From positions 1 to 46,524 of IMG/VR virus record IMGVR_UViG_3300032291_001936: a DNA stretch of 46,524 nt. The stretch is one strand, 5' to 3'. This DNA comes from a virus. The position numbers were made by a program, and so were the translations under genes. Below are positions 16,524-35,709 of this stretch, piece by piece; positions within the stretch are counted from its first letter, which is position 1, and every line of letters starts with the position of its first letter. The notes beneath the pieces are model-generated. The model saw only the letters and a program-made list of their open reading frames with translations, was not told the DNA's origin and made no database searches.

Positions 16524-18938
16524 ATGGCAACACTCATATTAAATAATACAACAAGTCCAGTAACTACGGCAGGTCAATTAGAGTTTAATACAACTAAAAA
16601 CACATTGGTTGTAGGAGATGGCATATCGGAAATTAATATGGCTACAACCGGTTCTAATACATTTACCGGAGACCAATCAATAACAGGTTCAATTAGTATA
16701 ACAGGAACTATAACTGCAAATGAATTTCATACAACATATGTAACATCATCTGCAATTTTTACATCAGGTTCGACTAAATTCGGTAATACAAACGATGACA
16801 CACACGAATTTACAGGAAGTGTTGACATATTGGGTACAGTTAAATTACCATCATTATCAGCAAATTCAAATGCAACAGTTGTAACATATGACGCTGCAAC
16901 AAAAACAATAGGATATAATACAGTAGCAGGCCCGCAAGGAACAACCGGTGCACAAGGAACAAATGGTTCTCAAGGTGTACAAGGTATAATCGGTTCTCAA
17001 GGTGCAACAGGTATACAAGGTACAACTGGAGCACAAGGTACTGAAGGATTGCAAGGAGTTCAAGGTACAAATGGTTTACAGGGACTAACAGGTATACAAG
17101 GAACCAATGGTTTACAAGGTATTCAAGGCATAATTGGCTCGCAAGGAGTTCAAGGTACAAATGGTATACAAGGTTTAACGGGAGTACAAGGTACTGAAGG
17201 ATTGCAAGGAGTTCAAGGATTGCAAGGTACACAAGGAGTTCAAGGTGTTCAGGGTATAATTGGAGTGCAAGGATTAGATGGTGCATACGCTGCACAAGGT
17301 ATTCAAGGAACTGCGGGAACTATTGGAATAAATGGTGTTCAAGGTATACAAGGATTAGATGGTGCATATGCTGCACAAGGTATTCAGGGTACAACTGGAG
17401 TACAAGGAACACAAGGTGTACAAGGTTTAACTGGAACAGGAACACAAGGAACAACTGGAATACAAGGTACAGATGGTTCAAATGGTACACAAGGTACAGC
17501 AGGAGTGCAAGGAACAACTGGAGCACAGGGTATACAAGGTTTAACTGGAACAGGAACACAAGGTTCAACTGGAGCACAGGGTGTAGCGGGAACAGTTGCA
17601 GATTTACCACCGGGAGTAGTAAGTGGTTCATCACAATTAACAAGTTCATTTGAAACAACTGGTAGAGGTATTATAAGTGGTAGTTCACAAATAACCCTTA
17701 ACTTACCAACGGGAGTAGTAAGTGGTTCTGCACAGATTAATATATATGATACAGAAAATATTGCCAATATTACCGATAGTATTTTAGATAAAGAGGAGGT
17801 GGCATCCACAACACATACATTAGTGTCGGGTTCATCTCAAATAGTTTATACAAATATCTCTTCAATTCCTGCAGGAATTATTAGTGGTTCTTCTCAATTA
17901 AGTGGAACTACCATTACTAATTTAACTATTACAAATTTGACAACAGTTAACGAAACTGCAAGTGTTTTATTTAGTAGTGGTTCTAATAGATTTGGTGATT
18001 TCGGAGACGATATCCATTCTTTTACAGGCTCTCTTCAATTATCGGGAAGTTTATCAGTAAAAGTTGCACAAGGAACAACTGAAGCAAATATATTAGTAGC
18101 AGATGGTAGTGGTAATGTAAAAACTAGAAGTAATTTAAGTTTACAAGGAACAACCGGTGCACAAGGAACAACGGGTACCACGGGCCCAGTAGGTGGAACC
18201 GGTGCACAAGGAACAACGGGTACCACAGGCCCAGCAGGACCAGCAGGTGCACAAGGAACAACGGGTACCACGGGCCCAGCAGGACCAGCAGGTGGAGCAG
18301 GCCCCGCAGGACCAGCAGGACCAGTTGGGCCAATCGGGCCAGCGGGTGGAGCAGGACCAGCAGGACCAGCAGGACCAGCAGGACCAGCAGGACCAGCAGG
18401 TGCACAAGGAACAACAGGTGGAGCAGGCCCAGCAGGACCAGCAGGCGGAGCAGGCCCCGCAGGACCAGCAGGCCCAGCAGGCCCAGCAGGCCCTGCAGGT
18501 GGATTTTCAACTAATTCGGATGCACAAGTTAATTCATTAGGTGTTGGTGTAGCTGCATCAGGAACAGCAGGTGATGTTAGAGCAACAGGAAATATTACGG
18601 CATATTATTCGGATAAAAGATTAAAAGATAATATAGAAAATATTACAAATGCATTATCCAAATTGGATAAAATAAATGGTGTATATTATACTCAAAATCA
18701 ATTGGCAGAAGAGTATGGGTATAATGATTATAGACAACAAGTGGGTGTAATTGCACAAGAAATTCAAAATGTTTTACCTGAAGCAATTTCGCCTGCTCCA
18801 TTTGACTGGATAGATGGTAAATCAAAATCAGGTGAAAATTATTTAACTGTTCAGTACGAAAAAATTATCCCACTTTTGATTGAAGCTATAAAAGAATTAC
18901 AATTAGAAGTTGATATTATAAAAAAGAAAGTATTATAA
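16524..18938 (+). CDS. Collagen-like tail fibre with S74 self-cleaving chaperone
   Basis: This 804-residue protein has an N-terminal fibre module (about 1-135), a first Gly-X-Y block (about 136-357, mostly GVQGTQG/GIQG triplets), a beta/Ser-rich linker with VVSGSSQLT seams, a second Gly-X-Y block (about 542-660, largely GPA triplets), and a C-terminal peptidase S74 intramolecular chaperone (about 680-804). In the S74 domain YSDKRLKDNI supplies the expected Ser-Lys dyad, S696 and K701, followed by VGVIAQEIQNVLPEA. Gly-X-Y repeats should form a collagen-type triple helix; the S74 domain trimerises the fibre and then cleaves itself off. The Pro-rich block has far higher GC than its surroundings. 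The next genes encode prolyl-hydroxylase-like enzymes. Confidence 0.88.
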   Translation: MATLILNNTTSPVTTAGQLEFNTTKNTLVVGDGISEINMATTGSNTFTGDQSITGSISITGTITANEFHTTYVTSSAIFTSGSTKFGNTNDDTHEFTGSVDILGTVKLPSLSANSNATVVTYDAATKTIGYNTVAGPQGTTGAQGTNGSQGVQGIIGSQGATGIQGTTGAQGTEGLQGVQGTNGLQGLTGIQGTNGLQGIQGIIGSQGVQGTNGIQGLTGVQGTEGLQGVQGLQGTQGVQGVQGIIGVQGLDGAYAAQGIQGTAGTIGINGVQGIQGLDGAYAAQGIQGTTGVQGTQGVQGLTGTGTQGTTGIQGTDGSNGTQGTAGVQGTTGAQGIQGLTGTGTQGSTGAQGVAGTVADLPPGVVSGSSQLTSSFETTGRGIISGSSQITLNLPTGVVSGSAQINIYDTENIANITDSILDKEEVASTTHTLVSGSSQIVYTNISSIPAGIISGSSQLSGTTITNLTITNLTTVNETASVLFSSGSNRFGDFGDDIHSFTGSLQLSGSLSVKVAQGTTEANILVADGSGNVKTRSNLSLQGTTGAQGTTGTTGPVGGTGAQGTTGTTGPAGPAGAQGTTGTTGPAGPAGGAGPAGPAGPVGPIGPAGGAGPAGPAGPAGPAGPAGAQGTTGGAGPAGPAGGAGPAGPAGPAGPAGPAGGFSTNSDAQVNSLGVGVAASGTAGDVRATGNITAYYSDKRLKDNIENITNALSKLDKINGVYYTQNQLAEEYGYNDYRQQVGVIAQEIQNVLPEAISPAPFDWIDGKSKSGENYLTVQYEKIIPLLIEAIKELQLEVDIIKKKVL
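16929..17595 (+). repeat. Gly-X-Y coding repeat, Gln-rich block
   Basis: This stretch encodes an almost uninterrupted run of Gly-X-Y triplets dominated by GVQ, GIQ, GTQ, GTT and GLQ. Its DNA repeats (CAAGGTATACAAGG-like) are imperfect. Confidence 0.88.
18147..18503 (+). repeat. Gly-X-Y coding repeat, Pro-rich and GC-rich block
   Basis: This stretch encodes GPA, GAQ, GTT and GGA triplets. It includes five perfect tandem copies of GCAGGACCA at 18351-18395, and near-identical longer repeats around 18170-18290. Its GC content is visibly much higher than that of the rest of the window. Confidence 0.9.
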
Positions 18939-20280: not shown

Positions 20281-21255
20281 ATGGTTATGAATAATTTAGT
20301 AAAAGAAGTTATAAAAAATGGAGGAAGTATTATACCTTTGATAATTCCGTCTGAACATACGAACGGTACGGGATTAATGAATCCATCCGTATTTGTTGAT
20401 AATGGTAAGATAATGTTAAATCTTCGACATGTACAATATACTTTATATCACACAAATGGTAATTTTGAAAGCAGATACGGCCCACTTGCATATTTAAATC
20501 CTGAAAATGATATTACTCTTAGAACTACCAATTTTTTGTGTGAAGTGGATAATAGTGGAATAAGTAAATTTACTAAAGTAGACACTTCTAAATTTGATAT
20601 AGAACCTGTTTGGGAATTTGTAGGATTGGAAGATGCGAGATTATTTAAATGGGAAGATAGATGGTATTTGTGTGGTGTTAGACGAGATGTAAAACCGAAC
20701 GGAGAAGGTAGAATGGAACTATCGGAAATAGAAATTGGAAGTAATTATGTTAAAGAAATAAATAGATTTAGAATACCCCCTCCAATAGTTGCAAATACAT
20801 ATTGTGAAAAAAATTGGATGCCTATATTAGACAAACCATTTCATTTTGTTAAATGGAGTAACCCAACCGAAATAGTTAAAGTCAATCCAATTGAAAAAAC
20901 ATGCGAACAAGTTAGTTTATCTAAAACTATAACCACAGATAGAGATTTAAGAGGTGGTAGTCAAATTATAAAAATAGGAGATAATTATATTGCTATAACA
21001 CATGAGGTTGATTTATGGAAGAATAAAAATCAAAACAAAATGGCAACCTATAAACATAGATTTGTTGTTTGGGACAACCAATGGAATATTATCCATACCA
21101 GTGAAGAATTTGATTTTATGACAGGCCAGATTGAATTTTGTTGTGGTTTGGCAGAATTCAAAAATGAAATATTAGTTACTTTTGGTTTCGAAGACAATGC
21201 CGCATATTTACTTAAAATACCAAAAGAATACTTTATAAAAATAGTTTATGCTTAA
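20281..21255 (+). CDS. GH130-like five-bladed beta-propeller, glycan-acting
   Basis: The 324-residue protein carries motifs typical of GH130/GT108-type propellers: LMNPSVFVDNGKIML (about 32-46), VGLEDARLFKWEDRWYL (about 114-130), EKNWMPI (176-182) followed by FHFVKWSNPTEIV, and a late GQIEFCCGLAEFKNEILVTFG. The clan includes mannoside phosphorylases and related mannosyltransferases. The GLEDAR strand holds the acidic residues that usually face the active site. An alternative start three codons into the frame (20287) is possible. It overlaps the next gene by 8 nt (ATGCTTAA), implying coupling to the methyltransferase. Likely substrates are sugar chains on fibres or host; the exact reaction is not determinable. 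Confidence 0.6.
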   Translation: MVMNNLVKEVIKNGGSIIPLIIPSEHTNGTGLMNPSVFVDNGKIMLNLRHVQYTLYHTNGNFESRYGPLAYLNPENDITLRTTNFLCEVDNSGISKFTKVDTSKFDIEPVWEFVGLEDARLFKWEDRWYLCGVRRDVKPNGEGRMELSEIEIGSNYVKEINRFRIPPPIVANTYCEKNWMPILDKPFHFVKWSNPTEIVKVNPIEKTCEQVSLSKTITTDRDLRGGSQIIKIGDNYIAITHEVDLWKNKNQNKMATYKHRFVVWDNQWNIIHTSEEFDFMTGQIEFCCGLAEFKNEILVTFGFEDNAAYLLKIPKEYFIKIVYA

Positions 21256-22480
21256 AGAATTAAAAGATTTTATTAATAATCCATATGATGGAGAAGTTGT
21301 TTTTAAGTTAGCCAATTTATATTTTAATCAATCACAAACTGCAACGGCATTAAGTTATTATTTGAGAGTTACCGAATGTGAAACTAATGATGAATTAACA
21401 TATGAAAGTTTAATTAAGGGTGGACTTTGTCTTTACAAACAAGGTAATAGAATACATTCCGTCAAATCGTTATATATGCATGCCATTTCATTATTACCCC
21501 AAAGACCAGAAGCATATTTTTTACTTGCTAGACTATATGAGGAAAATAAAGAATGGTCTGAAGCATATACATTATCTACTATGGCTTTGGCTGTTTGTGA
21601 TTTTGATTTAAAAGAATTAAAAACTTATGTTGAATATCCTGGCTTATATGGTTTCTTATTTGAAAAAGCAGTTAGTAGTTGGTGGATGGGAAAAATTGAA
21701 GAATCTTTAAATTTATTTTTAGATTTGGATAAGAATTATAAAATGCAAGATATTCACATAAAATCAGTTAAAGAAAATATTAAATATTTAACTAATAGTT
21801 GGCATATTCCTGTATTCTATTCTAAAAATAAAATGAATAATTTACGATTTAAATTTGATGGATATGATAGTATTCAATCAAATTATTCTCAATGTTTTCA
21901 AGATATGTTTGTATTATCAGCATTAAATGGTAAGAAAAAAGGAAAATATTTAGAAATAGGTAGTGCAGACCCATTTTTTTATTCTAATACGGCTTTATTA
22001 GAAATTGATTATGAGTGGACAGGAATTTCATTAGAAATAAATAAACAAGAAGTTGATAAATTTAGAAAAGCTAGAAAGAATGAATGTTTACATACCGATG
22101 CTCTTAAAGTAAATTATAAAGAATTATTAGATAATGCAAATTTAGGTAACGATTGGGATTTTTTACAATTAGATTGTGAACCACCAATTAACACTTATTT
22201 AATTTTATTGGAAATACCTTTTGATAAATATAGATTTGCTGTTATCACATATGAACATGATTACTATTGTGATGAAACAAAGTCATATAGGGAAAAAAGT
22301 AGAAGGTATCTGCAGACAATGGGATATAAATTAGTAGTGGGCAACATATCACCAGATGATAATTCACCATTTGAAGATTGGTGGGTACATCCTGATTTAG
22401 TAGACCCAAAAATAATAGAAGTTTTAAAATCTTCAAAAGAAATAAACCCGGCTAACAAATATATTTTTGAAATTGAATAA
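21248..22480 (+). CDS. TPR domain fused to FkbM-like methyltransferase
   Basis: Residues about 15-180 form TPR-like helical pairs (VVFKLANLYFNQSQTATALSYY; EAYFLLARLYEENKEWSEAY). Residues about 205-410 are a Rossmann methyltransferase of the FkbM/Methyltransf_21 type: SQCFQD at 214-219, KYLEIGSADPFFYSNT at 233-248 as the SAM-binding loop, a SLEIN acidic strand end near 261-265 and WDFLQLDCEP near 303-311. FkbM enzymes usually O-methylate sugars or hydroxyl groups. TPR fusions are frequent in enzymes acting on surface glycans or repeat proteins. With the adjoining propeller and glycosyltransferase it suggests glycan modification. Confidence 0.72.
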   Translation: MLKELKDFINNPYDGEVVFKLANLYFNQSQTATALSYYLRVTECETNDELTYESLIKGGLCLYKQGNRIHSVKSLYMHAISLLPQRPEAYFLLARLYEENKEWSEAYTLSTMALAVCDFDLKELKTYVEYPGLYGFLFEKAVSSWWMGKIEESLNLFLDLDKNYKMQDIHIKSVKENIKYLTNSWHIPVFYSKNKMNNLRFKFDGYDSIQSNYSQCFQDMFVLSALNGKKKGKYLEIGSADPFFYSNTALLEIDYEWTGISLEINKQEVDKFRKARKNECLHTDALKVNYKELLDNANLGNDWDFLQLDCEPPINTYLILLEIPFDKYRFAVITYEHDYYCDETKSYREKSRRYLQTMGYKLVVGNISPDDNSPFEDWWVHPDLVDPKIIEVLKSSKEINPANKYIFEIE

Positions 22481-23262: not shown

Positions 23263-25029
23263 ATGGGACTTAAATTTAGACGCGGTACCACCGCACAGAA
23301 ATCAGGTTCGTTAGCATTCGGAGAGCCGTATGTAAACACAGACTTAGGAACATTACAAATTGGTGGAGCAACTGGTGATATTACACTAGGAGCATCGGGA
23401 ACAGGAAGTGCAGCTACATTCGCTGGTATTTCGGGTTCATCATTAGACATCACAGGAAACGCAAAAATTGATGGTAACTTAAGATTGGGTGGTAACATTA
23501 CAATTGGTGATAATACTGCCGATAATGTAACCGTTGTAGCATCTTTAAGTTCTTCAATTATTCCTTCATTAGATAGTATATTTGATTTAGGTTCTCCTAC
23601 TAAACAATGGAGAGACTTATATTTATCATCTGCATCATTATATATTGATGGAACTCAAGTACTTTCATCAAACGCAACCGAATTAGTATTTACAACTGAT
23701 ACTGGTCAATCAATTAAATTTAACGAATTAGGTACTGATAATATTGTACTTCAAACTGTGGACGGAGATATTGAATTAAAATCTTCAGGTGGTGGTGATG
23801 TATTATTAGACCCAACTACTGGTATAATTTCGGTAAAAGGAAATGTTAGCATGCAAGATGGTACTGCTAAATTTTTAAGTTCAGGTGGAAATGATATAGT
23901 ATTTGGAAACAATTTAGTAGTAACTGGTTCTATTACTACTACTGGAAATGCAAATATTGCAGGTAACTTAACAATAGGAGATACCTCATCTGATACTGTA
24001 AATGTTGTTGCATCTATAAATTCATCACTTATCCCACAAACAACAAATACATTTGACTTAGGTTCTGCAACTAAATTTTGGAGAGACCTTTACATTTCAA
24101 CTGGTTCAATCAAATTTGTTGGAGCAGGTGGTAGTGTTGTAGGAACTTTAACAAATACTGGAAACGGATTAAATTTAGATGGTGGTGTGATTACAAATGG
24201 TAATAGTTCATTTGGTACTGCATCAGTATCGGTAACATCCGTAACTGGTTCATTAAGAGTTAGTGGTTCACTTACAACAATAGGAGAATCAACTGCAACC
24301 TCATTCAACGGAACAATAAACGCAAACAATAATGTTGTATCAAGTTCAGCACAAACAATTGCAAACTTACCAACGGGTACGGTAAGTGGTTCATCTCAAA
24401 TTACATACGCAAGCATCTCATCTATCCCAGCAGGAATAGTAAGTGGCTCATCTCAAGTAAGTTTAGGTTCTGCTAGTGGAAATATCGCATTGGCAACTCA
24501 AACAACCGGTGATTATGTTGCAAGTTTAGTAGCATCAACGGGTGTTACAATCACAAATAATAGTGGTGAAAATGCAACCCCATCAATCGCAATCGGTCAA
24601 GCAGTAGCAACATCATCAAATGTTCAATTTAACTCATTGGGTATTGGTATGGCCGCAACTGGAACTGCAGGTAGAATTGACGCAAGTGGTGATGTTGTAG
24701 CATATTCTACATCAGATAAAAACTTTAAAGAGAACATTACTCCAATCGAAAATCCAATCGAAAAAATCAGAATGATTAGTGGTAACACTTATGATTGGAA
24801 AGCAGATATGAAAGAGTTCCATGGTTTTGAAGGAAATGATGTCGGTGTTATTGCACAAGAAATTGAAGCAGTATTACCACAATTGGTAACAACAAGAGAA
24901 ACAGGATATAAAGCAGTTAAATACGACAAATTAGTAGCATTATTAATTGAAGGTATGAAAGCTCAACAAAATCAAATAGATAATTTAACAATCGAAATCG
25001 AAAAGTTAAAAGAATCAAAAGGGTTATAA
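23263..25029 (+). CDS. Tail fibre with S74 self-cleaving chaperone domain
   Basis: The 588-residue protein starts GLKFRRGTTAQKSGSLAFGE, the same kind of attachment module as other fibres here. A beta-rich module (GNITIGDNTADNVTVVASLSS-like, then FDLGSPTKQWRDLYLSSAS) occurs twice. Seams with VSGSSQIT and VSGSSQVS precede the C-terminal S74 domain: SDKNFKENI with S484 and K489 as the presumed dyad, then DVGVIAQEIEAVLPQL and a final coiled coil. It is a trimeric fibre matured by removal of its own C-terminal chaperone. The gene is the second S74 fibre in the window. Confidence 0.85.
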   Translation: MGLKFRRGTTAQKSGSLAFGEPYVNTDLGTLQIGGATGDITLGASGTGSAATFAGISGSSLDITGNAKIDGNLRLGGNITIGDNTADNVTVVASLSSSIIPSLDSIFDLGSPTKQWRDLYLSSASLYIDGTQVLSSNATELVFTTDTGQSIKFNELGTDNIVLQTVDGDIELKSSGGGDVLLDPTTGIISVKGNVSMQDGTAKFLSSGGNDIVFGNNLVVTGSITTTGNANIAGNLTIGDTSSDTVNVVASINSSLIPQTTNTFDLGSATKFWRDLYISTGSIKFVGAGGSVVGTLTNTGNGLNLDGGVITNGNSSFGTASVSVTSVTGSLRVSGSLTTIGESTATSFNGTINANNNVVSSSAQTIANLPTGTVSGSSQITYASISSIPAGIVSGSSQVSLGSASGNIALATQTTGDYVASLVASTGVTITNNSGENATPSIAIGQAVATSSNVQFNSLGIGMAATGTAGRIDASGDVVAYSTSDKNFKENITPIENPIEKIRMISGNTYDWKADMKEFHGFEGNDVGVIAQEIEAVLPQLVTTRETGYKAVKYDKLVALLIEGMKAQQNQIDNLTIEIEKLKESKGL

Positions 25030-26042: not shown

Positions 26043-27779
26043 ATGGCAAGAACAAATTTATCGTTAGGAAATTTATATAGAGCAGTAAGTGGTTCAGCGA
26101 GACCAGGAACAGTTTCAATTGGTGGGTTAGGTGGACAAACTGCAAATGGTTCATTATTAGGATTTGCAACCGATGCTATTACAGTAACAGTTCCAACTTT
26201 CACTTACATAGTAGAAAGTACGGCTGAAAATGCACAATTTTCTTTTAACTCAACTGGTTCACTTTTTTATTCTAAAGTTCAACAAGTTGCAAACAATTAT
26301 ACTTGTTCATTTGATAATGCAAATTTTTCAGCAGGAACTAGAACTTACGCAACAGGACCAACAATAGTTCCGTTAACACCGGCAGCAGTTGGTACTACGA
26401 CATATGCAGAAGCTAGTTCAGTTTTAACAATGAAATATGAAGATGGTTATAATGTCAATGCAACTAATTATGGTACAGTAACCACTAAAACATTATACGC
26501 AGTAGATGTTTACAATACAATTAACCAACCTGATTTTTGTTTATTATTTGGTACTAAAGTAACTTTGGCAAACGGAACTGAAATAAATATTGAAGATTTA
26601 AATGTTGGTGATGAAATTAAATCTTGGGTTCCTGCAGGATTGCCTGATGAATCTCAACCATTAGATAGTGAAAATATTGAATGGAGATTTTATTACTCTG
26701 ACGAATTATCAGGTGCTGCACAAAATGTTATCGTAAAAGATATTACATTTAATTTCGCATCTGGATACTTTTCTTTAAATAATGGTTTAATAAATGCAAC
26801 CGAAACTCACCCATTATATGTTTGGGATAATGAGATTAGTAAATATAAGTTTAAGAATGTAGGTGATATTTTACCTGGAGATAGACTTGTAATGCAAGAT
26901 GAAACTGAAGTTGAAATAACAAATATAGAAATAGTAACCGCAGATGTTGAAATTGCAACAGTGAATGTGGAAAATGCCGATGTATTCTTATCAAATGGTT
27001 TAATTTCACATAATAAAGGTACAACAACTCAACCTTATATTCCATCTTCTGGATTAAGATTGTACGCAGACCCAGGAAAAGCTTACTCATTTGCATCACA
27101 AACCTTACCAGCAACAGGTACACCAACAACGGATTTATTAGACCTTTCAGGATATAATACAGGTGTAAGACCTGCAGGTGTAACAAACGCAGCGGGTATA
27201 ACGGGTGGTAATCCATCTTATAACAATGGTGCAACTAAAAAAGATGAATATTTTGCATTCAATGGTACAAACCAATTTTTCTATAAAGATACTACTACAA
27301 ATATCAATGGTGGCATTTCTCAATTCAATACTAATACCGGTACAATTCATATGTGGGTAAGACCAACTACAACATTAGGAGTTGGGTCTAGACATATTTT
27401 TGACTACGCAGGTTTTTATGGTTTAGCAATTGAGTCAACAGACAGTTCTACTTTAAATAGAGTAAAATTCTATGGTAGTACATTAGGAAATAGTGCACAA
27501 TTAACGACTTCATTATCAGCAAATGTTTGGTATATGATTTCAGCAACATTTCAACCATCTGGAACTGTAACGGTTTATGTGGATAAAACATCAGTAGGAA
27601 CATTTACCGCAGCAGCGTTTACGGCACCATCATCAACAAACTTTTTAACAATTGGAGCTAATAGTGCAAGAACAACATTTTGGAACGGACAAATCGGACC
27701 AGTATTATTCTATAACACATTACAAAACTCAACAGTAGTAGGACAAGTATACGATTATTTCTCTCCAACATACAAATAA
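26043..27779 (+). CDS. Fibre protein with internal Hint (intein-like) domain and LamG-like end
   Basis: The 578-residue protein has an N-terminal fibre-like region (1-165), a Hint domain (166-324) and a LamG-like C-terminal region (about 335-578). The Hint domain starts at C166 (CLLFGTKVTLANGTE), continues with GLINATETHPLYVW whose T253-xx-H256 is the block B motif, and ends LSNGLISHN with H323-N324. The next residue is K325, not Cys/Ser/Thr, so classic splicing lacks its downstream nucleophile; this resembles A-type bacterial intein-like domains. At 159 residues there is no room for a homing endonuclease. The expected outcome is cleavage or atypical ligation, separating or rejoining the adhesin tip. 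The C-terminal part has TGTIHMWVRP and NVWYMISATFQPSGTV strands. Confidence 0.82.
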   Translation: MARTNLSLGNLYRAVSGSARPGTVSIGGLGGQTANGSLLGFATDAITVTVPTFTYIVESTAENAQFSFNSTGSLFYSKVQQVANNYTCSFDNANFSAGTRTYATGPTIVPLTPAAVGTTTYAEASSVLTMKYEDGYNVNATNYGTVTTKTLYAVDVYNTINQPDFCLLFGTKVTLANGTEINIEDLNVGDEIKSWVPAGLPDESQPLDSENIEWRFYYSDELSGAAQNVIVKDITFNFASGYFSLNNGLINATETHPLYVWDNEISKYKFKNVGDILPGDRLVMQDETEVEITNIEIVTADVEIATVNVENADVFLSNGLISHNKGTTTQPYIPSSGLRLYADPGKAYSFASQTLPATGTPTTDLLDLSGYNTGVRPAGVTNAAGITGGNPSYNNGATKKDEYFAFNGTNQFFYKDTTTNINGGISQFNTNTGTIHMWVRPTTTLGVGSRHIFDYAGFYGLAIESTDSSTLNRVKFYGSTLGNSAQLTTSLSANVWYMISATFQPSGTVTVYVDKTSVGTFTAAAFTAPSSTNFLTIGANSARTTFWNGQIGPVLFYNTLQNSTVVGQVYDYFSPTYK

Positions 27780-30191: not shown

Positions 30192-30680
30192 ATGCCAGAA
30201 ATATTAGAGTTTGACAAAATGTTCTATAAGAATTTTGAACCAAAGTTAGGTAATAGATTCATTATGGAAATCAACGGAATAGAATCTTATCTTATTAAGA
30301 CTGCTGCGAGACCAACATTTACATCGGAAATTGTAGAATTAGACCACATCAATGTAAAAAGAAAGATTAAAGGAAAATCTACATGGGATGATATCACTAT
30401 CACTCTTTATGACCCAATTGTACCATCAGGTGCACAAATGGTAATGGAGTGGGTTAGACAATCACATGAGTCATTAACAGGCAGAGACGGATACGCAGCT
30501 TTCTATAAAAAAGATATTACATTCTTCTTATTAGGACCAGTAGGTGATAAAGTTGAACAATGGACATTAAAAGGAGCATTTATCAGTTCAGCAAACTTTG
30601 GTGAGTTGGATTGGGCTTCAAACGACCCATTGTCAATTGAATTAACTTTGACTTACGACTACGCTATTTTAGAGTATTAA
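30192..30680 (+). CDS. Tail tube protein, T4 gp19-like
   Basis: At 162 residues it matches T4 gp19 (163). The N-terminal PKLGNRFIMEINGIESYLIKT, the central VELDHINVKRKIKGKSTWDD, the DPIVPSGAQMVMEWVRQ helix and the C-terminal NDPLSIELTLTYDYAILEY are the conserved tube landmarks. It builds the inner tail tube around the tape measure. The gene is followed by a terminator, as for the capsid gene. Confidence 0.93.
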   Translation: MPEILEFDKMFYKNFEPKLGNRFIMEINGIESYLIKTAARPTFTSEIVELDHINVKRKIKGKSTWDDITITLYDPIVPSGAQMVMEWVRQSHESLTGRDGYAAFYKKDITFFLLGPVGDKVEQWTLKGAFISSANFGELDWASNDPLSIELTLTYDYAILEY

Positions 30681-30781: not shown

Positions 30782-31606
30782 ATGGAAGAAAAATTAGAAC
30801 AACAAGTTACTAGAGGTTTACAATCACAAACTGTACAACAACAATCTACACCAAAATCTTATCCTTTCCCAACGGAAATAATTGGTTTACCATCAAAAGG
30901 ATTAATATATCCTGAAAGTAATCCATTATCAAAAGGAGAAGTTACGGTTAAATTGATGACCGCTAAAGAAGAAGATATTTTAACTTCAACTACATTAATT
31001 AAAAAGGGTATTCAATTAGATAAATTATTAGAATCAATTGTAATTGAACCAGGTGTTGATATTAATGATTTAGTTATCGGAGATAAAAACGCAATTTTAG
31101 TTACATCTAGAATCTTAGCATTTGGACCTGAATATCAGGCAAAAATAACCGACCCATTTGATAAAGAAGAAGTAGAAGTTACTATTGATTTATCTCAAAT
31201 CAAAATTAAAGAAATTGATGAAGATAAATTAAATAGAAATAATGAATTTGAATTTTTCTTACCTATTTCTAAAACTCCAATTAAATTTAAATTATTAACT
31301 CATGGTGATGAATTGATTATTAATAAAGATATTGAAGCAAGTCAAAAAACTTTAAAACAATCAAACGAAATCACAACCAGATACAGAAGAATAATTACTG
31401 AAGTAGATGGTGTAAGAGATACTGGAACAATTAGTAATTTTGTTACCAATCGTTTATTGGCAGGAGACTCCAAAGCATTACGAAAAGCTATTATGGAAAT
31501 AAGTCCAGATTTGGATTTAAAATTTGATTATACATCCCCTGTAACTGGTGACACGGAGGCACTTCGTATTCCTTTTGGGATTGGATTTTTTTACCCTTCC
31601 GAGTAA
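30782..31606 (+). CDS. Baseplate hub/tail assembly protein, gp26-like (T4_baseplate family)
   Basis: The 274-residue protein carries the family pattern IIGLPSKGLIYPESNPLSKGEVTVKLMTAKEEDILTS (written here by its blocks GLPSKGLIYP and VKLMTAKEEDILTS), LIKKGIQLDKLLESI, a DLVIGDKNAILVTSRI block and FGPEYQAKI. T4 gp26 (208 residues) is a baseplate hub assembly factor. The gene lies directly before the tape measure region and overlaps, in another frame, a gp51-like segment. Its end IPFGIGFFYPSE reaches a run of seven T's at 31586-31592 just before the stop codon at 31604. This layout resembles the G/GT tail-assembly chaperones of other phages, in which frameshifting joins two products. Confidence 0.75.
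   Translation: MEEKLEQQVTRGLQSQTVQQQSTPKSYPFPTEIIGLPSKGLIYPESNPLSKGEVTVKLMTAKEEDILTSTTLIKKGIQLDKLLESIVIEPGVDINDLVIGDKNAILVTSRILAFGPEYQAKITDPFDKEEVEVTIDLSQIKIKEIDEDKLNRNNEFEFFLPISKTPIKFKLLTHGDELIINKDIEASQKTLKQSNEITTRYRRIITEVDGVRDTGTISNFVTNRLLAGDSKALRKAIMEISPDLDLKFDYTSPVTGDTEALRIPFGIGFFYPSE
31586..31592 (+). promoter_or_regulatory. Candidate +1 frameshift site (T7 run)
   Basis: The upstream frame reads TTT TTT TAC here. A ribosome slipping forward one base on TTT re-pairs perfectly and continues as ACC CTT CCG AGT AAT into the gp51-like frame. Direction and use are inferred. Confidence 0.4.
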
Positions 31607-31811
31607 TTATAGTTCCTATCTTCATAAAAAGATTTTTCAAATGGCTTACTACGCAAATGGTGGGTTCAATTGGAATGACTTATACTATATGCCGATTAAA
31701 TTAAGAGAATTCTATTATAGAGAACTACTCAGTGCAAAAGAATCGGAAAAAGAAGAGATGGATAAAGCAAATACAAAAGCAAAATCAAATTCTAAAGTAA
31801 GAAGAAGGTAA
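31593..31811 (+). CDS. gp51-like segment, probably reached by +1 frameshift
   Basis: In the frame one base ahead of the gp26-like gene, the sequence encodes NYSSYLHKKIFQMAYY, NGGFNWNDLYYMPIKLREF and YYRELLSAKE, the pattern of gp51-like hub proteins, then a basic tail ending KSNSKVRRR. The gp51-like similarity begins upstream of the first internal ATG (31641, which would give 56 residues), and the only earlier initiator is a GTG at 31548 buried in the gp26-like gene. A gp26-gp51 fusion made by a +1 shift at 31586-31592 explains this best. The coordinates given are the segment after the proposed shift. Independent translation from 31641 is the alternative. Confidence 0.6.
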   Translation, partial: TLPSNYSSYLHKKIFQMAYYANGGFNWNDLYYMPIKLREFYYRELLSAKESEKEEMDKANTKAKSNSKVRRR

Positions 31812-31855: not shown

Positions 31856-32107
31856 ATGCCCAAGCAAACATTAATAGAAGTTAAATTACTTGATAAAATA
31901 CTAAACTTTTTTGGTGGTGGAAGTAGTAGTTCTACCAAGGAGAAATTTTTAGATACTGTTAGACAAAGTGACCCACAATTAGCAAAAGCATTTGATGGAT
32001 GGGAAGATTCATTTTTAAAATTACTGAGCAGTACTAGAAAAATATATATCAAAAACGGAAGAGATACTAAGGAAATTGATAATCTTATCAGAAAATACAA
32101 AGGATAA
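31856..32107 (+). CDS. Small unknown protein before tape measure (83 aa)
   Basis: The product has a short hydrophobic-amphipathic N-terminal helix (LIEVKLLDKILNFFGGGSSSS), then a charged helical part (EKFLDTVRQSDPQLAKAFDGWED) and a basic C-terminus (NGRDTKEIDNLIRKYKG). No family is recognised with confidence. Its place between the gp51-like segment and the tape measure, 17 nt before the latter, suggests a tail-assembly role such as binding the tape measure. The FDGWEDSFLKLL segment could form an amphipathic helix. Confidence 0.6.
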   Translation: MPKQTLIEVKLLDKILNFFGGGSSSSTKEKFLDTVRQSDPQLAKAFDGWEDSFLKLLSSTRKIYIKNGRDTKEIDNLIRKYKG

Positions 32108-32124
32108 TAATTCTACTATAATTA

Positions 32125-35100
32125 ATGCCTCCAAAGACCAATTATACAACTGAGCAAGCCAAACTGGTTAGGGATATTAAAAAAACTAATGAAGAAATAG
32201 CAAAACTTCAAAGTAATTTAATTGAAGGGGATAAAGTGCAGCTAGAAATTATTGCTGAACAAAGTAAAAAACTTAGAGATTTACAAAAAATATATAAAGA
32301 TAATGTAAAAGTTATTAATAAAGCTACATTAGAATTCGAAGATATGGATGATACTTTAATTAGTATTGGAAATACAATGAAAACTAATAATAAATTAGTA
32401 GAACTTCAATCTGATAATTTTACAAAAGTTAAACTTGTAGCAACAAGTATTGCAGATGAATTGGCAAAAGGAGGAGCTAGTAATGAAAAAACTCAAAAAC
32501 AAATTATTGCGGCTCAAAATGCATATAAAAGTATGCATATATCAATTGCAGACGCCAATAAAGAATATGCATTAGGTAGAATATCAAATGAAGAACGTGT
32601 TGAATTAATTAAAAGACAATCTGAGGCATTTCAAGATATGGTATCTGTTATTGATATGACTAAAGTATCATCGGAAGAATTAACAGAGCAAATAAAAAAT
32701 ATGACGGATGAGGCTGAGCATTTCGGTAATAGTATGAAAGAAGCTCAAGTTAAATCTGAAAAATTAGATAGTATATTTGAATCATTTGAAGGTATCCCAG
32801 CATTAGGACAAGTAAACCAATTATTAAAAACAAATATAAAAGATACAGTTGCATTCAAAGCAGCTGTATTTGCATTAGGAGCAGCATTAGGTAAAGCCGC
32901 ATTTGATTATTTTGGCGCACCTATGAAAGCAGCAATGCAGCAACATAAAGAAATTGAACAACTTGGAATAGATGGTGAGGCTGAAAGAGCTAAAATGACA
33001 ATGGATAGGGGGTTCATTGATAGAGATGCAGCCAAAGGTTATAGTAAAATACAAGAAGAATCTGATAATAATAGAATTGATACTGCACATAATGTAGCAC
33101 AAGCTATGAATGAAGCAGCTTTTGCCGGTCAAAAAGCAGCAAATAGTTTTTCTGCATCAATGAAAAGTGGAGCAGCACAATTTGATAGAGCAGCTAAAAC
33201 AGCATTATTTGGTAAAAGTATTGGTAGTATAGGATATGGTGCTGCCCAAATGCAATTAGCAGGTATTGGTGCAGATAAAATAGCATCCGCAATGGAAGCA
33301 GCCGGAGCAGCAACTGGTAAAATGCCAACTGCAAAAGCAGCCGCTGATATGGCAGTTATGGCCGAAAGAACGGGACAATCCGTAGATGATATATCAACAA
33401 TCAATGAGGCATTCCAACGTATGGATGGTATGAGTGCAGAAGTTGCTATGAATATGCAAGAAGGGATGCGTAATATGGCAGACCAGGCTGGTATAGGTTT
33501 AGGTAATTTAATGAAAGAAGTTGCACAGGCATCCAAAGAAGCATTGGGTTATCAAATTAAATCTGGACCTGCGTTAGCAAAAGCAGTTGCATATACACAA
33601 TCAATGGGATTAAACTTTGGTGATGTAGCTAAAGCGGGTAAGAATATGGTAATGAACTATAAAGATAGTATCAAAGCCGAAATGCAATTAAGTTCTATGT
33701 TAGGAGAACAAGTTGATTTAGCGGAAGTAAGAGCTAAATTTGCAGCAGGTGATACCGAAGGTGCATTGAGTTCGTTAAAAGCACAGGGATTAAATCCTGA
33801 GGATATGGATATGTTCCAACAACAGGCATTACAAGATGCATTGGGAGGGATGGATTTAAGTTCATTACAAAAAGTAGCACAAAATACAGGCAAAGAAGTT
33901 GGTTTATCCGGAGGAAATGCAAAAGCAGGTAATCAGGATTTCTTATCAAGAACTCAATCTGCGGAAGCAACATTAAATGCACAAGAAGCAAGTATATCGG
34001 CACAACAAGCAATAGTTGATGCAAAATTAGCAGGCCAAATTGCAGATTCATTTATAAATTCGCCAGGCCATATAGCGTTTTTAAAAGCTCAGGCAGACCA
34101 AGCTATAAAATCTCAACAACTTAGTGAAGAGATGGAAAAGCTTTTTAAAAATTCCGATGCATATAATAAACAACTAACCAAAACTATGCAATTAAACTTC
34201 GTAGATACTATAAAAGAAGGTTTAATGAGTGGATTGGCAATGGTATCTGGTGGAGTAATAACTTCATTTTTAGCTAGTAAAATTGGTGGAGGTGCCGGAG
34301 CTAGTGCAATGAGTATGATTACCGGTGGAGGAGGAGCTCCTGCCGCAGTTGCTTCACCCGCAGCAAAAGCAGTTAGTGGTGTACAATCGGCAGCAGCTGG
34401 TGTGGGAGGAGCGGGTGGAGGTGGAATGGGTGGTGCATTATCTGGAATAGCTACTGGTCTTGCAGCGTTTGCAAATCCGGCAACGTTAGTAGGTTTAGCC
34501 GCAATTACTGCTGCATTGGTATTATTACAACCTGTTATAGAAACAATGGTACCTGTAATGGTAGAAATGGCTAGAGTGGTTGGTGAAGTAATAGTAAAAG
34601 CATTGGAAGTTGCTGGCCCAATAATCACTGCTATTTTAGAAGGAATAGGATATGTAATAGAATCAATAGGAAAAGCAATTGCAATGGTAATAACTGCCAT
34701 CGGAGATTCTCTTGTTAAAATAGGTAGTATCGATGGTGGAAATTTATTAGCAGTAGCAGCAGCATTGATACCACTTTCAGCTGGTTTAGTAGCTTTAGGT
34801 GCAGGAGAATTGATAGCAGGTGTTCTTGGGTTTGTTGGTTCTCTTTTTGGCGGCGGCGGCCCGACAATATGGGAAAAATTAAAGGAACTTGGTGATTCAG
34901 GACCAGCGTTAATGCAAGCAGCAACCGCAGTTAGTGTATTAGCACCTGCATTCGCAATGCTTTCGCAAGTAGATGATGGTGAGAATTTGGGAGCATTGAT
35001 GGACAATCTTAAATCAGCATTAACTAAGCTTGATGATAAAGCACAAGCAACATTAAAAGGATTAGCTGGAGCAATGCATGATTTTGGATATGGTGCATAC

Positions 35101-35709
35101 GCATTGGGTGTGGTAAGAAGTAATCCAAATTTAGAATTATTAGCAGCACAAATAAAATTATTATTAGCAGATGATGTAACAAGTGCAATAACAAAAGGTA
35201 CACCGATAATACAAGGACTTCAAACAACGTTAAATTCATTTAATACATCCACAATGGGATTAGCAAATTCTTTATACATGGTTAATCCACAACTTATGAT
35301 ATTATTAAATACAATGAACACCTTCAGTAATATTTCGGCCGGTATAGATACAACAACTTTAGCTTTGACAAATATGGCTTCAGCATTGAGTGAAGTTGCT
35401 AAAATAAACACTACAAATTTAACAAAAGTTCCTTGGGATAAAATGTCAGGTTTCAGTAAATCAAACGGAAACTTCGTATTAGCACAAAGTGCAAATAATA
35501 ATTTTAACATAGCACAAGAAAGTGCTAAAAATTTACAAAAATTAGCTACGGACTCAAAAGCAAATTTACAAGTATCTAAAAACTTACAAGCTTTAATTGC
35601 AGTATTAGCAAATGAACAAACTGCCGGAACACAATTGATTATAGATGGTAAAGCGGTTGCTAATATGTTAACAAGACGAGATGACAATCGTAGAGCAACA
35701 AAGGCTTAA
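32125..35709 (+). CDS. Tail tape measure protein
   Basis: This 1194-residue protein is the longest gene of the tail module and lies just after the putative chaperone pair, as tape measures do. The first 230 residues are charged and coiled-coil-like (KKTNEEIAKLQSNL; EQSKKLRDLQKIYKDN). The middle is Ala/Met/Gln-rich helix. Residues about 690-940 contain long hydrophobic stretches (NPATLVGLAAITAALVLLQP; LLAVAAALIPLSAGLVALG), as expected for a protein that may enter the host membrane during ejection. It is twice T4 gp29 (590 residues); at about 1.5 angstrom per residue this predicts a tail near 180 nm, an inference. No lysozyme or peptidase motif was recognised. Confidence 0.88.
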   Translation: MPPKTNYTTEQAKLVRDIKKTNEEIAKLQSNLIEGDKVQLEIIAEQSKKLRDLQKIYKDNVKVINKATLEFEDMDDTLISIGNTMKTNNKLVELQSDNFTKVKLVATSIADELAKGGASNEKTQKQIIAAQNAYKSMHISIADANKEYALGRISNEERVELIKRQSEAFQDMVSVIDMTKVSSEELTEQIKNMTDEAEHFGNSMKEAQVKSEKLDSIFESFEGIPALGQVNQLLKTNIKDTVAFKAAVFALGAALGKAAFDYFGAPMKAAMQQHKEIEQLGIDGEAERAKMTMDRGFIDRDAAKGYSKIQEESDNNRIDTAHNVAQAMNEAAFAGQKAANSFSASMKSGAAQFDRAAKTALFGKSIGSIGYGAAQMQLAGIGADKIASAMEAAGAATGKMPTAKAAADMAVMAERTGQSVDDISTINEAFQRMDGMSAEVAMNMQEGMRNMADQAGIGLGNLMKEVAQASKEALGYQIKSGPALAKAVAYTQSMGLNFGDVAKAGKNMVMNYKDSIKAEMQLSSMLGEQVDLAEVRAKFAAGDTEGALSSLKAQGLNPEDMDMFQQQALQDALGGMDLSSLQKVAQNTGKEVGLSGGNAKAGNQDFLSRTQSAEATLNAQEASISAQQAIVDAKLAGQIADSFINSPGHIAFLKAQADQAIKSQQLSEEMEKLFKNSDAYNKQLTKTMQLNFVDTIKEGLMSGLAMVSGGVITSFLASKIGGGAGASAMSMITGGGGAPAAVASPAAKAVSGVQSAAAGVGGAGGGGMGGALSGIATGLAAFANPATLVGLAAITAALVLLQPVIETMVPVMVEMARVVGEVIVKALEVAGPIITAILEGIGYVIESIGKAIAMVITAIGDSLVKIGSIDGGNLLAVAAALIPLSAGLVALGAGELIAGVLGFVGSLFGGGGPTIWEKLKELGDSGPALMQAATAVSVLAPAFAMLSQVDDGENLGALMDNLKSALTKLDDKAQATLKGLAGAMHDFGYGAYALGVVRSNPNLELLAAQIKLLLADDVTSAITKGTPIIQGLQTTLNSFNTSTMGLANSLYMVNPQLMILLNTMNTFSNISAGIDTTTLALTNMASALSEVAKINTTNLTKVPWDKMSGFSKSNGNFVLAQSANNNFNIAQESAKNLQKLATDSKANLQVSKNLQALIAVLANEQTAGTQLIIDGKAVANMLTRRDDNRRATKA

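Follow-up and report, generated by a model that had tools for sequence, protein, structure and literature searches.

A probable programmed +1 frameshift in the tail assembly chaperone genes of a T4-related phage lineage

Introduction

Phage lambda (gpG/gpGT) and the HK97/P2-type pairs produce a short and a long tail assembly chaperone (TAC) by a frameshift just ahead of the tape measure gene, and the shift in these systems is −1 (PMC5009743). The same review describes G-T frameshifting as conserved in long-tailed phages ‘except T4’, and regards a +1 shift in a TAC-type gene of the haloarchaeal myovirus HSTV-2 as very likely (PMC5009743). In T4, the proteins listed as chaperones of hub assembly include gp26 and gp51 (PMC3004832). 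These two are encoded by separate genes on opposite strands, without a frameshift. Vladimirov, Gautam and Davidson reportedly described in 2022 a frameshift that several T4-like groups have conserved, whereas T4 uses genes 26 and 51. Two papers cite Vladimirov et al. (2022), one for two separate TAC genes in some T4-like phages (PMC10885494) and the other for poly-T signals in T4-like TAC genes that it calls −1 (PMC12846349).

Here we analyze a 46,524-nucleotide viral sequence (IMG/VR record IMGVR_UViG_3300032291_001936, positions 1 to 46,524; hereafter the window). A first-pass annotation, made from the sequence alone, had proposed that a +1 slip on a run of seven T’s joins a gp26-like and a gp51-like reading frame, and that this would extend programmed frameshifting to T4-like hub genes. 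The frameshift is supported by the comparison of relatives described below. The novelty is not, since frameshifting in T4-like TAC genes as such is already known (PMC10885494; PMC12846349). Our literature search, to which Vladimirov et al. (2022) was known through citing papers only, found no report of a +1 direction across a large T4-related lineage, of a register rule or of upstream elements. The +1 direction in a T4-related lineage, together with the register rule, appears to be new.

Results

The window encodes gp23, a tail sheath and a gp25-like baseplate wedge protein, and it therefore represents a T4-related contractile-tailed phage. It also carries fibre-type genes at 16524–18938, 23263–25029 and 26043–27779; the domains found among them are collagen repeats with an S74 chaperone, an Mtd N-terminal domain with S74, and a laminin-G-like domain. 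The TAC locus, like the gp19 and probable tape measure genes, is on the + strand. It lies between the gp19 tail tube gene (30192–30680; PF06841, E=1e-8; phrog_4542, E=2e-31) and a large gene at 32125–35709 that encodes 1194 residues. The latter is the probable tape measure gene, to judge from its position, which is that of the annotated tape measure in phages immuto and SP-15; PF- and phrog-type profile searches returned no family match for it. The placement ahead of the tape measure is that of a G/GT-type pair, as had been claimed. An 83-residue open reading frame at 31856–32107, between the TAC and tape measure genes, has no convincing family match.

The first gene of the pair, TAC-N (30782–31606, 274 residues), belongs to the T4 gp26/PF12322 family of short tail assembly chaperones. 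It scores 36.1 bits against PF12322, above the curated cut-off of 24.5 (E=7e-9), and matches phrog_150, ‘baseplate hub’, with E=1e-11, which bears out the gp26 relationship. Its predicted model (pLDDT 85) matches gp26-type proteins from other phages in a fold search. In a search of PDB folds no match was significant; HK97 gp13 (2ob9) was the sole tail chaperone among the top matches, and a weak one. Direct reading of the 3′ end gives GGA TTT TTT TAC CCT TCC GAG TAA, with the stop codon at 31604–31606 and a protein ending in FGIGFFYPSE, confirming the coordinates first given for the frame and for the T7 run (31586–31592). The run comprises codons 31586–31588 and 31589–31591 and the following T. 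It is located five codons ahead of the TAC-N stop and directly 5′ of TAC-C, the putative +1-frame extension (31593–31811), which would be read only after the shift, starting ACC CTT CCG and ending at the TAA at 31809–31811. A +1 slip on T7 yields the junction GFF-TLPSNYSSYLHK. The +1 open reading frame as a whole spans 31548–31811, and its first codon, a GTG, sits within the TAC-N gene.

In-frame TTTTTTT occurs twice in the ~14,900 codons of the window. The second instance is at 21974–21980, in a glycosyltransferase-like open reading frame (21248–22480), and T7 by itself has little meaning. The case therefore depends on the relatives, in which conservation far exceeds chance. The comparison drew on 193 loci, some on viral contigs, some on MAG contigs and some in isolated phages. 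The TAC-N stop was readable in 189 of these, and loci below 85% nucleotide identity gave a set of 105 representatives. A TAC-C profile matches the +1 frame in 187 of the 189 relatives. All 105 representatives have a +1 frame that stays open for 50 codons, and 100 of them have a closed −1 frame. As in G/GT-type systems, a second frame is joined by a conserved frameshift near the 3′ end of the first.

Conservation of the T run in relatives, which had been suggested as a check, takes the form of a codon rule. In all 187 relatives with a +1-frame TAC-C, an in-frame TTT is followed by T or C (UUU_Y), and therefore re-pairing of tRNA-Phe after a +1 step, as first proposed for the window, is always possible. 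Among the representatives the Phe-Phe pair reads TTTTTTT in 79, TTTCTTT in 16, TTCTTTT in 5 and TTTCTAT in 2, with TTCTTTC, TTTTTTC and TTTTTTA found once each. The T run is thus interrupted in 26 of 105, and TTTCTAT has at most three consecutive T’s. Only one relative, L237, exceeds seven (T8). The −1 register is absent. A T directly 5′ of a TTT-first pair is expected at about 80 of 138 sites from gene-wide codon usage and is observed at none, the one T scored, in L237, being due to a site boundary that fell a codon late in its T8 run; the −1 slippery heptamer of the form X_XXY_YYZ, here T_TTT_TTY, is in register in 0 of 187 relatives, where codon usage predicts about half. By this comparison of sequences, selection acts against the −1 register at the slip site.

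Codon usage around the run is unusual at the third position. Over the last 100 codons, the largest deviations from the gene’s own usage fall in four places: −9, −3 (the codon that precedes the run), the G-rich stretch from −33 to −27, and +6 (TAC). The −9 position corresponds to the GGG codon at 31577–31579, the strongest synonymous-site anomaly in this region (64 of 105 G-ending versus 10.7 expected). Two elements can be recognized. One is an internal Shine-Dalgarno (SD)-like GGAGG (31555–31559; −31 to −27), 26 nt 5′ of the slip codons; GGAGG, AGGAG or GAGGA occurs at this fixed offset in 75 of 105 representatives, compared with a background of 1.7%. The other is a weak stem-loop, AUUCC-UUUU-GGGAU (31568–31581), which ends 4 nt before T7 and in the family alignment pairs −18 to −14 with −9 to −5. 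The wobble positions −16/−7 of the stem covary, with 45 Watson-Crick pairs versus 28.6 expected (33.3 if shuffled within slip classes), and stem stability exceeds that of synonymous recodings, with 39% of the family in the best tenth versus 11.5% of control segments; the permutation figures overstate significance, as the sequences are related by descent. In the window itself the hairpin is weak, at −5.7 kcal/mol for 31560–31592 with the flank included. A candidate long-range helix, in which the G-rich block upstream would pair with a C-rich block downstream, was rejected (own pairing 10.70, shuffled partners 10.65).

These patterns indicate that the upstream GGAGG and the weak hairpin are under nucleotide-level selection. 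Both may serve to stimulate +1 and suppress −1 slippage. Such a role agrees with results from a 70S in vitro system, in which hairpins or SD duplexes placed upstream, near the E site, raise +1 and attenuate −1 frameshifting (PMC6321510).

The homology of the two halves to T4-like TACs is seen at the level of families. In a phrog_150 search, T4 gp26 aligns to the N part and T4 gp51 to the full N+C length. In P-SSM2, S-PM2, HTVC008M, Cr30 and phiM12 the same search finds the C part in a frame that is −1 relative to the N part, and all five have T_TTT_TTY at the homologous FF codons. TAC-C of the +1 group aligns with that of the −1 group (cyanophage TAC-C and the T4 gp51 C-terminus) at an hhalign probability of 95% (P=2e-8; reversed control 0.4%), in line with the gp51 relationship noted at the outset. 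Single T4 gp26 or gp51 sequences compared directly gave no significant similarity, and alignments and family profiles were used instead. In the TAC-N tree, which is unrooted and has several long branches, a fully supported branch splits the +1 group from the −1 group, and T4 falls with the latter. The two groups share the FF pair, a poly-T slip and the position in the tail module; they differ in that the −1 T4-like TACs shift at T_TTT_TTY whereas the window phage would shift +1 at TTT_TTT_T. They also differ upstream: P-SSM2, S-PM2 and Cr30 (L114, L115, L118) carry GGAGGGA ~10 nt before the −1 heptamer, compared with GGAGG at 26 nt in the window. An internal SD stimulates −1 shifting in dnaX, and the GGAGGGA spacing in these three phages is close to it. 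No sequence similarity was detected between the window TAC and the lambda or HK97/P2-type TACs.

Taken by comparison of sequences, the relatives establish joint coding of the two frames, the +1 direction, the UUU_Y rule and selection against the −1 register, and they show that both halves are homologous to T4-like TACs. On comparative grounds, a programmed +1 frameshift is very strongly supported. We infer further that the slip is ribosomal, and its efficiency and the chaperone function in the window phage are likewise matters of inference.

Our preferred reading, which we consider probable, is a programmed ribosomal +1 frameshift that joins TAC-N and TAC-C and makes a short and a long tail assembly chaperone. 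The majority of ribosomes would stop at 31606 and give the short, gp26/gpG-like TAC-N. In a minority, tRNA-Phe on the UUU at 31586–31591 would move one base forward and re-pair with UUU (UUC in relatives), and reading would go on in the +1 frame. The shifted product would be TAC-NC, a minor gp51/gpGT-like form, whose TAC-C tail of ~70 residues would connect the tape measure-chaperone complex to the tube subunits. A comparable step is known in prfB (RF2), where peptidyl-tRNA slips +1 on YUU_U at CUU_UGA_C; sites of the immuto class, CUU_UGG_C, differ from it by one base. The RF2 site is autoregulatory, and has a stop codon in the A site and an SD 3 nt before the slip codon, whereas the TAC site has a sense codon and other spacing and is not autoregulatory. 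Two of these differences count against a ribosomal +1 shift: the A-site codons UGG and UAC are sense and not obviously hungry, and GGAGG is 26 nt upstream.

A U run preceded by a hairpin also suits slippage by RNA polymerase, and hairpin-assisted transcriptional slippage is the main rival, although an unlikely one. A hairpin in the nascent RNA would cause the polymerase to drop one U of U7, and normal translation would then give the fusion. The T7 of 79 representatives and the covarying hairpin 4 nt before it fit this explanation, and stem-loop-mediated forward realignment during transcription is known in a Roseiflexus insertion sequence (PMC5009743). However, the 26 interrupted runs, some with three T’s or fewer in a row, all keep a codon with which tRNA-Phe can re-pair, and apart from the single T8 no run is longer than seven. 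What is kept is a codon-level rule instead of a homopolymer; transcriptional slippage is therefore disfavoured as the general mechanism.

A −2 ribosomal shift of the phage Mu type would arrive in the identical frame with one extra Phe, and an intact T7 would allow P-site re-pairing. It is highly improbable, as TTCTTTT, TTTCTTT, TTTCTAT and TTCTTTC bar re-pairing two bases back but permit +1 re-pairing by tRNA-Phe.

Slightly less credible still is that two separate proteins are made, with TAC-C initiating independently at the GTG (31548–31550) or at an ATG at 31641. The window has both codons, and T4 itself and two relatives use separate genes. The GTG that had been noticed within the first gene does exist, but only 30 of the 105 representatives have it and we reject it as a start; internal initiation at GTG or TTG is not conserved across this set. 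For 38 of these representatives, the +1 frame lacks any ATG, GTG or TTG from the preceding stop up to the slip site; a start first becomes possible 5–46 codons downstream, within conserved sequence. Thus, separate initiation cannot be the general mechanism. Conserved +1-frame sequence also begins ahead of the first ATG, and the slip codons go with a +1-frame TAC-C: every relative that has one keeps them, and the two relatives that do not have lost them. A sequencing error in T7 is excluded by ~190 separate records, isolated phages included.

The two exceptions, L227 and L232, are the only relatives among the 189 with TAC-C in another frame. The slip site is replaced by TTC TTG or TTC CTT, and an ATG a few bases past the TAC-N stop opens a separate TAC-C reading frame. 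Both are placed deep within the +1 clade of the TAC-N tree. On the sequence evidence, loss of the site accompanies gain of a start codon in these phages, which would thus have reached a two-gene state like that of T4 by a second route of their own. In LR756511 (L088), a 595-kb phage genome, a TAC-C-like open reading frame with its own ATG follows TAC-N outside the +1 frame.

The +1 arrangement is also present in isolated phages: Rhodothermus phage RM378 (TCC TTT TTT TGG), Flavobacterium phage immuto (TTT CTT TGG), Microcystis phage Mel-JY01, Bacillus SP-15, Listeria LIS04 and Streptococcus GXN1. Among viral contigs, SP-15-like and RM378-like queries recovered only themselves. Relatives L237–L242 of the locus come from MAG contigs; four of these contigs carry the label Winogradskyella, Flavobacteriaceae or Flavobacteriales, a hint of Bacteroidota hosts for the lineage.

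Discussion

The locus is best described as a G/GT-type pair of T4-like TAC genes in which the shift would be +1. It may be, and we put this forward tentatively as a reading with somewhat less than even support, that a whole T4-related lineage uses +1 instead of −1: the same gene and the same Phe-Phe codons, with the U run moved by one base. The shift would then be driven from upstream by a new signal with two parts, an internal SD-like element ~26 nt away and a hairpin abutting the E site.

The analysis also corrects annotation. In isolated relatives TAC-C is mostly unannotated or present only as a stub. It is absent or a short stub in the public records NC_055915 (150651–150761), NC_031245 (35810–35929), LIS04 and GXN1, because the frameshift was unrecognized.

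More broadly, nature has provided a large series at this locus: one and the same shift site is +1 in some phages, −1 in others, and in still others has given way to separate genes. The determinants of frameshift direction therefore become testable.
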